The notes beneath the pieces were generated by a model. It ran no database searches, was not told the DNA's origin, and saw only the letters and a program-made list of their open reading frames with translations. 49,815 nt of DNA from contig JAGVXI010000011.1 in the NCBI GenBank assembly GCA_018303855.1, positions 1 to 49,815 of the forward strand, read 5' to 3'. Within the stretch, counting starts at the first letter, position 1. The number at the start of each line of letters is the position of its first letter. Below are positions 39,253 to 49,815 of this stretch, in pieces. This DNA comes from Candidatus Pacearchaeota archaeon. GTDB lineage: Archaea > Nanobdellota > Nanobdellia > Pacearchaeales > GW2011-AR1. The translations under genes were made by a program, and so were the position numbers.

Positions 39253-40572
39253 ATGGAAAATAAGCAGGAAGAGAATAATAAAGAGGCTGAAAAATCTGAA
39301 AGAGAACAAAGAATCAGACAAATAACTCATCTTTATTATTCACGTCCAGAAATCCAAAAAGCGATTTTTGAATTTTCGCAACAAAGAGAAGTTGTTCCAA
39401 GATATTTTGAAGGGTTTGGCAAACGTCCAGACTCACTTCAATACCCAAGTGATGTTTTTGAGCTCGTGAAAAAAGGAGCAACATCTTTTCATTGTTCAGA
39501 AGAAATTTGGCAAGAACCATTGAAACTCTCAACAGAGTTGACAGAAGCCCAGTTTAATGAATTAAGAATTGGATGGGATTTGTTAATAGACATTGACTCA
39601 AAATATTTGGATTACAGCAAAATTGCAGCAGAGATTATAATAAAATTTTTGGAGTTTAATGGTGTGAAAAATATTGGATTGAAGTTCAGTGGTAGCAAAG
39701 GTTTTCATCTTATTGTTCCATTTAAAGCATTTCCTAAAGAAATAAATAATGTTCAAGCAAAAGATATGTTCCCAGAATGGCCAAGGATAATCTTAAAATA
39801 TATAATTGAAAAAATAAAACCCCATTTAATTGAGAAAGTAACAAAACTAATCTCTGAAAAGCAAAGTAAATATATCAAGGATTTTGATGCTTCAAAACAA
39901 GTTGTTCCAGACATAATACTGGTTTCTCCTAGGCATTTGTTCAGAATTCCATACTCTTTGCATGAAAAAACTGCTCTTGCCAGTGTTGTTATTGGTAAAA
40001 CTGAGATAAAAGATTTTCAGCCAAAAGATGCAGGCCCTTTAAAAGTTAAAATAAAAAACTTTCTGCCAGATTGTAAGCAAGGAGAAGCTTCCGAACTGCT
40101 GATGCAGGCTCTTGATTGGTATAGAGAAACAGGGCAATGGGATGAGCCTGCAACAATAACAGAATTTAAACCAGTAAAGCTTGCTAAGATTTCAAATGAA
40201 TTTTTCCCTCCAAGCATTCAGAAAATTCTGCAGGGTGTTGCTGATGGTAAAAAAAGGGCGCTGTTTATCCTGATAAATTTATTCCGCTCAATTGGCATGG
40301 AAAAAGAAGAGCTTGAAAAGAGAATTGAAGATTGGAACAATAAAAATCAAATGCCATTAAAAAATGGTTATATTAAATCTCAGCTGTCTTGGAGTTATAG
40401 AAATAAAATTGTACCACCTCCAAATTTTGACAAAGATTATTATGCCGGTATTGGAATAATTCCAACCCAAGAAGAAAAGAGATACAAAAACCCGATTAAT
40501 TATGTTATCAAGAAAGCTCTTCAACTTAGTAACCCAGATAATCCTGTAGAGAAGCATAAACCTGAAGTCTAG
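39253..40572 (+). CDS. priS: DNA primase small-subunit-type protein with C-terminal PriL-CTD-like region
   Basis: LLIDIDSKYLDYSK, GLKFSGSKGFHLIVPF, VSPRHLFRIPYSLHEKT; C-terminal extension. Confidence 0.88.
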   Translation: MENKQEENNKEAEKSEREQRIRQITHLYYSRPEIQKAIFEFSQQREVVPRYFEGFGKRPDSLQYPSDVFELVKKGATSFHCSEEIWQEPLKLSTELTEAQFNELRIGWDLLIDIDSKYLDYSKIAAEIIIKFLEFNGVKNIGLKFSGSKGFHLIVPFKAFPKEINNVQAKDMFPEWPRIILKYIIEKIKPHLIEKVTKLISEKQSKYIKDFDASKQVVPDIILVSPRHLFRIPYSLHEKTALASVVIGKTEIKDFQPKDAGPLKVKIKNFLPDCKQGEASELLMQALDWYRETGQWDEPATITEFKPVKLAKISNEFFPPSIQKILQGVADGKKRALFILINLFRSIGMEKEELEKRIEDWNNKNQMPLKNGYIKSQLSWSYRNKIVPPPNFDKDYYAGIGIIPTQEEKRYKNPINYVIKKALQLSNPDNPVEKHKPEV

Positions 40573-40786
40573 AAATTTTTTTGTATGTGCCTTAATTTCT
40601 TAGCTTTAAAATTTGCATCCAAATATGACAAATTTTAAAACATCAAAAATTTCTCGAATGTCCTGAATTTTTGTGGGCTTAAAATTTGCATCCAAATATG
40701 ACAAATTTTAAAACATAGAAATTTCTTATGTAATCCCTTAATTTCTTGGCTTTAAAATTTGCATCCAAATATGACAAATTTTAAAA
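40571..40786. repeat. three-unit 73-bp tandem hairpin array
   Basis: TTAAAATTTGCATCCAAATATGACAAATTTTAAAA core starts at 40606, 40679 and 40752; alternates with a second inverted repeat. Confidence 0.93.
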
Positions 40787-47554: not shown

Positions 47555-47947
47555 TTAATAACTAAAAAACTGGCTAAATCTCTCGCCTTTCTTTTTTGCC
47601 TCTTCTAAAGAAACTGCCCAGTTATTTCCCACATCTCTTAGCTTTTTAGGGTGCAAGAAAAGCCATCCTTCTCTGTTAAAACGCAGGGCAATTACTGGAT
47701 GTAACCCAAAAATCTCGCAAAAAATCATAAACTGCTCAATTTGTTGTTTTGAAATATACTTCACAGGTTTTTTGCTTGATTTAACTTCAATTGCATATTT
47801 TCTCCCGCCTGCTTTGCCTGCAATTAAATCGCATTCAGCATTTTCCATAACACCGCTTCCTGCAACCCTTACAGCTCTCCATCCAGCTTCAATGAATTTC
47901 TTAAATAACTCGCGTTCAGCATTGCTTCCCTTGGATTTGTTGGACAT
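47555..47947 (-). CDS. hjc: archaeal Holliday junction resolvase Hjc
   Basis: KGSNAERELFKKFIEAGWRAVRVAGSG...CDLIAGKAGGRKYAIEVKSSK. Confidence 0.92.
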   Translation of the reverse strand: MSNKSKGSNAERELFKKFIEAGWRAVRVAGSGVMENAECDLIAGKAGGRKYAIEVKSSKKPVKYISKQQIEQFMIFCEIFGLHPVIALRFNREGWLFLHPKKLRDVGNNWAVSLEEAKKKGERFSQFFSY

Positions 47948-47963: not shown

Positions 47964-48785
47964 TTATAGGTTATCTAATGGACTTTTTATATTTTTTATA
48001 GATGCCTGAGAAATTTGTGTGTAGATTTGCGTTGTTTTTATATCTGAATGCCCTAAAAGCTTCTGAATTATTCTCAAATCAGTTCCATTTTCAAGAAGGT
48101 GTGTTGCAAAAGAATGCCTAAGCAGGTGTGGATAAACTTCTTTTGTAATTTCCGCCTTTTTTGCGGAATTCTCAACTATTTTTCCAATACTCTTCTTTGT
48201 TAATTTTCCTCCTCGATTTGATGGAAAAAGAATTTTATCAGGGTTCAATTTGATATATGCTTTAAGCTCTTCTGTGAGTGATTCAGGAACTTTGACAAAC
48301 CTGTCTTTCTTTCCTTTTGCTAGGTTTATATGAATTAATTTTTCTTCAAAATTAACATTCTCTTTTTTTAAATTAATAATTTCAGAAACTCTTAATCCGC
48401 AACCATAAAGAATTTTTAATATGAGTTTATGTTTTATGTTTGAAGTAATCTTAATCATTTTTTTAATTTCTTCTGGTGTTAATATTATAGGGATTGTTTT
48501 GTTTCTTTTTGGTTTTGGAATATAAATGTTTTGATTTAAAATATTCTTAAAAAAATATTCAAGTGCGAAAATTGTATGATGTACAGAAGAAGGTTCGTTT
48601 TTCTCAAGCTTTTTTAATATATATTTTTTAGCATTTTCAAAATTTGGCATTTCATTAAAATAATTCAAAAATTCAAAATATTTTTTAATATGAACAAGGT
48701 AGGCTTTAGAAGTTTCTTTAGAATAATTTCTTAAAATCAAGTTTTCTTTTAATTTGTCAAAGAGCACCCATTTTTCTTCCTGCAT
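47964..48785 (-). CDS. xerA: tyrosine recombinase XerA
   Basis: YGCGLRVSEIINLK, HLLRHSFATHLLENGTDLRIIQKLLGHSDIKTTQIYTQI. Confidence 0.93.
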   Translation of the reverse strand: MQEEKWVLFDKLKENLILRNYSKETSKAYLVHIKKYFEFLNYFNEMPNFENAKKYILKKLEKNEPSSVHHTIFALEYFFKNILNQNIYIPKPKRNKTIPIILTPEEIKKMIKITSNIKHKLILKILYGCGLRVSEIINLKKENVNFEEKLIHINLAKGKKDRFVKVPESLTEELKAYIKLNPDKILFPSNRGGKLTKKSIGKIVENSAKKAEITKEVYPHLLRHSFATHLLENGTDLRIIQKLLGHSDIKTTQIYTQISQASIKNIKSPLDNL

Positions 48786-48939
48786 AATTTAATCAAACCC
48801 TTATTACTTAAAAAGGTTACCATACATCTCTTTTAAGATGGGAATATAACCTCTGGTTCTATTTCCATCATGTTAGTTTCAATTTTTGAGAATGCCTACA
48901 AGTTAGAGTTCAAACAAAGAAATAGGAAATAATATTTTT

Positions 48940-49215
48940 TCTCCCACCCAATAGGAGAGACGCGCGCAGTTTTCTTTTCAAGAAAACTAGATAGCAAAAA
49001 CTTCGTTTTTGGATTTATATGGGGATTTCCTTAGTGCTTCGCACAGATAGTCTCGGCTTCGCCTCGCAGAAAAACTTCTTTTATCCGACCAATGAAAACC
49101 CACGAAATTAAAATTTCGTCTAACAGAGGATAAAAGGTTCGCTGTCGCTCTCCCAAATTTTTCTATTTATTTTGGGGGAGTTCCTAATCCTTCGGATAGA
49201 TAGTCGGCTCACGCC
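48940..49215. repeat. dense hairpin block with repeated AGATAG-linked stem-loops; possible structured RNA or ssDNA element
   Basis: At least seven perfect or near-perfect stems, several closed as C(TTC)G; two aligned ~42-bp copies with covarying stems. Confidence 0.75.
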
Positions 49216-49218
49216 AAA

Positions 49219-49815
49219 TTATCTTCTCCTACTTCTTCCTCTGCCAGTTAAAGCCCAAATTATTACTCCCACAATAACTGAAGCAATTATCCAACCTGTC
49301 CAATTACTAAAAAATCCTTTTATCACACTTATAATTTTTGAAAAAGAATTTGTTTGAATCTCAACACCTTCGGATTTTCCTTCAAATTTTACTTGATTAT
49401 CTACTATGCTGTTTGGGATTTTATATTGAGAATTTATGTTTATTGCTTTTTTCTCATCATAAGGATTTTGATAATACTCAATATTTTGAAGGTCTAAAGT
49501 CGGTGTCAAAATCCAATCACTTACTCTTTTATCTCTCTCCATATTATTATAAGAATTTAATGGAATATAAAACTCAAATTTGCTTTTTGGAGGAATATAA
49601 GCTGGACTTCCCATAATTTTATGAGTTTCAGTTTCTTTACCATTTCCATTCCAATTTCCTAAATTTTTGTTTTCTACTAAAATCCTCAAATTTATAGAAT
49701 CACTATTTTCAGAACCCACTTTAACCCAAAAATCAAAATTATTTTTTATGGTAACTTTTAACATAACATTATTATCAGGATTTGCAATTCCCTTGATACA
49801 TCCTTGATAACATTC
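49219..49815 (-). CDS. C-tail-anchored surface protein, 5' end beyond the window
   Basis: Reading frame stays open upstream of 49764 to the edge (...VIKDCIKGIANPDNNVMLKVTIKNN); C-terminal TM then TGRGRSRRR. Confidence 0.6.
   Translation of the reverse strand, partial: ECYQGCIKGIANPDNNVMLKVTIKNNFDFWVKVGSENSDSINLRILVENKNLGNWNGNGKETETHKIMGSPAYIPPKSKFEFYIPLNSYNNMERDKRVSDWILTPTLDLQNIEYYQNPYDEKKAININSQYKIPNSIVDNQVKFEGKSEGVEIQTNSFSKIISVIKGFFSNWTGWIIASVIVGVIIWALTGRGRSRRR

Follow-up and report, generated by a model that had tools for sequence, protein, structure and literature searches.

The integrase gene, attI-like palindrome and hairpin block

The window, meaning the whole 49,815-nt stretch analysed here, belongs to a genome of 0.86 Mb and carries, towards its right end, an integrase gene, an attI-like palindrome, a G^TT crossover and a hairpin block, in that order (Table 1). 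The block is followed by part of a gene whose product matches no family in Pfam or NCBIfam. A Holliday-junction resolvase (Hjc) gene (47555-47947) lies directly after the integrase gene, and elsewhere in the window, between two genes, short tandem repeats with units of ~73 nt, 83-92% alike, occupy positions 40570-40786. The archaeal genes of the window (XerA-type, Hjc), together with the genome size, point to an archaeal host.

Table 1 Coordinates of the recombinase gene, the putative recombination sites and the elements of the hairpin block in the window.
Feature	Coordinates	Strand	Sequence or remark
XerA-type tyrosine recombinase, candidate array integrase	47964..48785	-	273 aa
Putative attI core	48837..48869		from sequence: inverted repeat GATGGGAATATAACC / GGTTCTATTTCCATC, 13/15 complementary, 3-nt spacer
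Crossover G^TT, attI/first cassette junction	48872..48874	+	context ATG^TTAGTTTCAA
Arm S1 of cassette leader	48883..48896	+	TTTTTGAGAATGCC; start 11 nt from crossover
Arm S2	48955..48967	+	GAGAGACGCGCGC
Tandem hairpins 3' of S2	48968..49011	+	joined by AGATAG
Third related hairpin unit	48968-49010
Arm SD	49019..49030	+	ATGGGGATTTCC
Hairpin repeat copy 1	49021-49063
Tandem C(TTC)G hairpins	49034..49063	+	GTGCTTCGCAC - AGATAG - GGCTTCGCC; bottom strand C(GAA)G
Module B, circularly permuted attC-like element	49066..49166	+	covariance model R1, covariation, permuted attC match
Module B stem	49078-49086/49128-49136		CTTTTATCC/GGATAAAAG
Module B stem	49102-49119		ACGAAAT/ATTTCGT
Stem	49079-49135		TTTTATCC/GGATAAAA
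Stem	49148-49180		CTCTCCCAAA/TTTGGGGGAG
Hairpin repeat copy 2	49174-49215
Arm S3	49174..49186	+	GGGGGAGTTCCTA; perfect 13-nt partner TAGGAACTCCCCC on contig C7
Tandem hairpins	49187..49215	+	ATCCTTCGGAT - AGATAG - GGCTCACGCC; bottom-strand loops C(GAA)G, C(GTGA)G
First cassette gene, 3' part	49219..49815	-	signal-peptide, membrane-anchored protein; 5' end on contig C7

The recombinase retains the invariant catalytic positions R132, H220, R223, H246 and Y255. It scores above the cut-off of the archaeal XerA model NF040815 (234.1 against 220 bits), and below that of the integron integrase model TIGR02249 (204 against 265), which it matches in two separated pieces. The nearest solved structure is Pyrococcus XerA (4a8e), and alignment to the structure of Vibrio IntI4 (2a3v) opens a 42-residue gap at the IntI-specific domain. 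With this domain, near patch III, missing, the enzyme falls outside the IntIs as they have been defined (PMC9668308), the insertion being held necessary for integron recombination; the system taken together nevertheless behaves as an integron does. From the order of a Pseudoalteromonas 79 genomes were sampled, and in 42 of them IntIs score above the TIGR02249 cut-off, with a match that is nearly always full-length. In a tree of the archaeal enzymes, those linked to arrays lie mostly apart from the XerA-like paralogues that these lineages have on the chromosome; the sub-clade of 11 containing the window enzyme is well supported (100/99), while the wider grouping is not (86/67). Several genomes hold an array paralogue distinct from the chromosomal XerA, and a single copy is seen in the window genome. 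The C-terminal SPLD motif fails to separate array from chromosomal enzymes.

Palindromes followed by GTT, comparable to the putative attI core of the window, adjoin the integrases of three relatives (L048, L058, L053), and the position of the window G^TT matches the cassette starts found after attC sites in relatives.

On inspection, every stem listed in the initial annotation is present where it had been placed. Its 'repeat copies' exist as well, and are more exactly successive arms, each followed by a hairpin-AGATAG-hairpin unit. The global fold of the 291-nt block exceeds chance only modestly: the + strand RNA fold has a z of -2.24 (3/200 shuffles are equally good) and the - strand RNA fold a z of -1.14, with DNA folds at -1.39 (+) and, for a slightly longer stretch, -1.93 (-). 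It is the perfect hairpins at local scale that are out of the ordinary in this genome, three C(TTC)G hairpins with a stem of at least 4 lying in the block and none with C(TTC)G or C(GAA)G in window positions 1-47960. The checks proposed with the annotation included an Rfam scan and a genome-wide search for the AGATAG-linked hairpin pair. No Rfam family matched the block, and in a pattern search of the window's own genome the block was the sole occurrence of the pair. A DNA search of 95 related genomes returned stretches 75-97% identical from many other genera. There are several of them to a genome, their orientation is fixed, and they often lie upstream of a Xer-like recombinase. These matches, with the compensatory changes that they carry, are strong evidence that the block is more than chance, and the covariation of stems claimed in the annotation is seen in relatives. 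In relatives it resolves into module A (about 48892-49063) and module B (49066-49166), whose distributions are separate. A CRISPR leader, a tracr/omega RNA, an H/ACA RNA, origin repeats and chance palindromes were also considered as identities for the block and dropped.

Cassette arrays in relatives and the complementarity of cassette ends

Relatives of the window genome carry attC-like sites in tandem, all on the same strand and built from R''-L''-L'-R' boxes; those of G029 (contig C17) read R''(..AAC) A L'' hairpin CCCAAAT ... L' GAT G^TT. A covariance model was built from an alignment of 19 such sites; these were chosen partly for pairing, so that the covariation within the model is itself biased upward. 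By this model, 28 of 57 relatives have attC-like sites, which are closely packed in same-strand arrays and number up to 20 in a genome. The arrays sit in fragmented MAGs. Where integrase and attC sites share a contig, in G029, G012, G026, G022 (two arrays), G002, G045, G005, G037 and G038, the integrase adjoins the same-strand attC array and is transcribed away from it. The cassettes are joined at G^TT, and their genes point both ways (31 sense, 29 antisense). The cargo is varied and exchanged between genomes; among the proteins recognized by Pfam are a DNA methylase with RAMA, a TdeIII restriction enzyme, NYN and DsbA-like proteins. One methylase cassette is common to two genera (G012 and G073), and a cassette of ArsR type, as judged by reading its sequence rather than from a database match, is likewise found in two genera (G060 and G029). 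Further intergenic repeat families are common to arrays of different genera (L048 4370-16258, L053 6200-12350, L058 5700-9680). An attC scan of the window and of 17 loci of other phyla with distant XerA-like genes gave nothing convincing, and the array type therefore seems confined to the wider lineage of the window.

The two ends of a cassette were compared by the total length of their exact complementary stems, taking the 350 nt that follow G^TT at one end and the 350 nt that precede R'' at the other, with mismatched ends of different cassettes as the control; exact stems and a separate validation set replaced an initial test on BLAST scores, which was too noisy. In the discovery set (29 cassettes), the total stem is 20.3 nt between own ends and 3.5 nt between mismatched ends (p=6e-9). 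The validation set of 32 new cassettes gives 26.3 nt against 2.9 nt (p=8e-21), with an own-end stem in 27 of them; these p-values are nominal, as cassettes within one array are not all independent. RNA folding of the joined ends agrees more weakly (p 0.003). The first arm, S1, has a preferred start, exactly 11 nt away from the G in G^TT: arms at an offset of 9-13 are found in 9/29 own against 5/722 mismatched pairs in the discovery set, and in 7/32 against 5/952 in the validation set. Nothing of the kind appears in 51 bacterial cassettes from five arrays (2.0 vs 2.1 nt, p=0.73; S1 in 0/51), which were located by recurrent k-mers after strict bacterial attC patterns had failed; a Pseudoalteromonas locus (L213) with just two attC-like repeats was left out of this control. 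At the level of sequence, then, the array architecture, the attC-like sites and the cassette boundaries are established, and so is the private complementarity of each cassette's two ends, whose arms differ from cassette to cassette. We found no description of self-complementary cassette ends.

The arms of the window leader have counterparts in these cassettes. In a G022 cassette (contig C31), an arm identical to S1 pairs with the 3' end of its own cassette, and so does S2; the SD arm is found paired with the 3' end of a G065 cassette (L062). The far end of the window's own cassette was reached through a protein search: positions 49717-49815 are identical to the end of contig C7 (L197:8755-8853), an overlap of exactly 99 nt that connects the window's contig to C7 within the first cassette gene. 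The search on C7 for a partner of S3 was a prediction of end pairing tried in the window genome, and it came out positive, with a perfect complement at the far end of the cassette. The hairpin and arm order after this complement is that of a complete G029 cassette, and is followed by an attC without R'' and L''. The next cassette on C7 has GTTAGTTTCAA-TAAGCGGGCGAGC at its start and GCTCGCCCGCTTA at its end, a second case of a 13-nt arm at offset 11. S3 is the one arm of the window leader seen to pair with its own cassette's far end; the first arms, S1 and S2, do not match the tail, which is of the G029 type (window 48872-49063 compared with L197, reverse complement 1190-1260). As they differ from the tail in type, the window leader is a hybrid of two cassette types in which the full stem cannot form, and leaders seem to be swapped as modules. 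Under the attC covariance model, no site of the window genome passes and only degenerate sites are present, the first attC having lost R''/L''.

Strand-specific loops and module B

Around all attC-like sites, hairpin loops on the top strand read C(TNC)G in 87 cases and C(GNA)G in 1, against a C(TNC)G background of 0.85 in shuffles and 0 in 148 kb of chromosomal DNA; for C(TNNC)G loops the count is 14 against 0.6. The bottom-strand equivalents of the two loop types are C(GNA)G and C(GNNA)G, which are exceptionally stable DNA mini-hairpins (PMC4686876), and the bottom strand of attC is reported to be the one recombined by bacterial integrases (PMC2117344). An RNA UNCG tetraloop needs an adjacent C-G pair, which is present in just 23 of the 87 C(TNC)G loops. 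Bacterial attC sites have the same bias in smaller numbers, 17:1 for C(TNC)G on the top strand (L216, L219, L221, L222, L223), and we found no description of it. Judging from these loci, the bias is a general trait of integron sites.

Module B is recognized by the covariance model R1 at 114.5 bits in the window, whose copy is among the source sequences of that model. Its main stem varies in a compensatory manner (TTTTATCC/GGATAAAA, TCTTAACC/GGTTAAGA, TCTTATCG/CGATAAGA), with 25 double-change cells; shuffling yields 8.7, and sliding the partner no more than 3. When B is cut in its central hairpin and the halves are swapped, the match to the attC profile improves in 19/19 cases and reaches up to 22.6 bits, the best shuffle scoring 2.0. 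Module B thus corresponds, by its profile match, to a circularly permuted attC lacking G^TT. Among 24 B modules, 14 are preceded by an attC crossover no more than about 200 nt away, and 3 by an integrase/attI. Four copies (L060:3474-3579, L057:7557-7662, L066:8163-8265, L054:10154-10257) have arms of mismatched types, such as an exchange of halves would leave. The module-B core is also present on two IMG/VR viral contigs (L195:7526-7543, L196:686-703), a hint of cassettes on viruses; the covariance model finds no attC on either.

A proposed role in recombination and its alternatives

The block is very probably the 5' leader of the first cassette in an archaeal integron-type array, with the adjacent XerA-type recombinase as its integrase and a single-stranded DNA architecture in place of an RNA gene. 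In the mechanism that we propose, the integrase would use the attI-like palindrome as its insertion site, with cassettes entering between G and TT. Once a cassette is excised as a circle, its bottom strand would fold so that the attC hairpin sits atop a long branched stem built from the cassette's own ends (S1, S2, SD and S3), with the GNA-capped mini-hairpins and module B as side branches. Since the leader in an array follows the attC of the preceding cassette, the end stem can surround attC only in the circle; it may therefore aid extrusion of attC from the circular cassette and favour integration over excision. Both the use of attC-like sites by the integrase and the action of the paired ends in a circular single strand are read from sequence patterns. 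The initial annotation had suggested folded single-stranded DNA connected with the neighbouring tyrosine recombinase, a suggestion that the data support and for which its remark on GCGAAGC loops on the minus strand was the key; it missed that the block is a cassette leader.

That annotation had offered a structured non-coding RNA in the same breath, and this part is not supported. A transcript or 5'/3' UTR element from the block, regulating for example the recombinase or the cassette genes, would agree with the covarying stems, the + strand RNA fold and the loops that read C(UUCG)G. However, cassette genes in equal numbers in both orientations argue against an RNA leader, the C-G pair for UNCG accompanies a minority of the C(TNC)G loops, all of which read as C(GNA)G DNA loops on the other strand, the arms pair across 0.5-5 kb of coding DNA, and an Rfam match is absent; we give an RNA very little chance. 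Inverted-repeat ends, the recurrence of module B and a leader A common to different genera at over 90% identity could also be explained by another mobile element, fold-back or HUH/IS200-like, entering the arrays independently of the integrase. Against such an origin, which we consider very improbable, the distance between the integron crossover and the start of the arms is fixed at 11 nt, the units follow attC or attI in most cases, the cargo varies by cassette, and no transposase was found among the ORFs examined with Pfam.

It is also conceivable, though unlikely, that the array is an integron whose complementary ends are by-products with no part in recombination, either relics of inverted duplication or terminator-like hairpins that act on the cassette genes. 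T-rich hairpins do occur near gene ends and some arms are short, but in both sets of cassettes, taken separately, the arms are cassette-specific and fit the far end of their own cassette, and nothing comparable is seen in the bacterial ones. With the cassette-leader reading preferred, a further proposal is put forward more tentatively, at somewhat less than even confidence: the arrays could form a distinct integron class. Its integrase, of XerA type and lacking the IntI domain, would act on cassettes with a long, branched single-stranded DNA scaffold of their own, the ends of the circular cassette would zip round attC so that an intact circle is integrated rather than excised, and the permuted attC of module B would provide an extra integrase-binding branch.

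Archaeal integrons have been reported (Ghaly et al. 2022, PMC9668308), with Nanoarchaeota among the phyla. They share with the present arrays the archaeal MAG hosts, the folded attC-type sites, the cassettes and the integrase-attI-array layout; their IntIs, however, have the IntI-specific domain and most of their arrays are integrase-less, whereas here a domain-less integrase adjoins the arrays and self-complementary cassette ends are an added feature. Bacterial chromosomal integrons have the R/L boxes, the G^TT crossover, the divergent integrase and the bottom-strand C(GNA)G loops in common with these arrays, and differ in lacking cassette-end complementarity and in an IntI that matches TIGR02249 over its full length. 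In archaeal XerA/dif resolution the enzyme is close to the present integrase, but the array integrases, besides being mostly separate from the chromosomal paralogues, are tied to attC arrays. The d(GCGAAGC) GNA/GNNA DNA mini-hairpins (Hirao; PMC4686876) are identical in loop and closing pair to the bottom strand here; they are known as a biophysical motif and aptamer part, whereas in these arrays they form a natural strand-specific signature. What goes beyond known integrons, as far as sequence comparison can tell, is the private complementarity of the ends, the strand-specific C(TNC)G loops and the permuted attC of module B.

Integrons are the main natural platforms of gene capture. If a XerA-type enzyme without the IntI domain uses folded attC sites, the rule by which integrons are now recognized would have to be revised, as would the number of archaeal arrays counted as 'without integrase'. 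If the proposal is true, self-complementary cassette ends would add a new level at which the balance of insertion and excision is controlled. The strand-specific GNA loops may serve as a simple sequence signature of single-stranded DNA folding, helpful in finding more sites.
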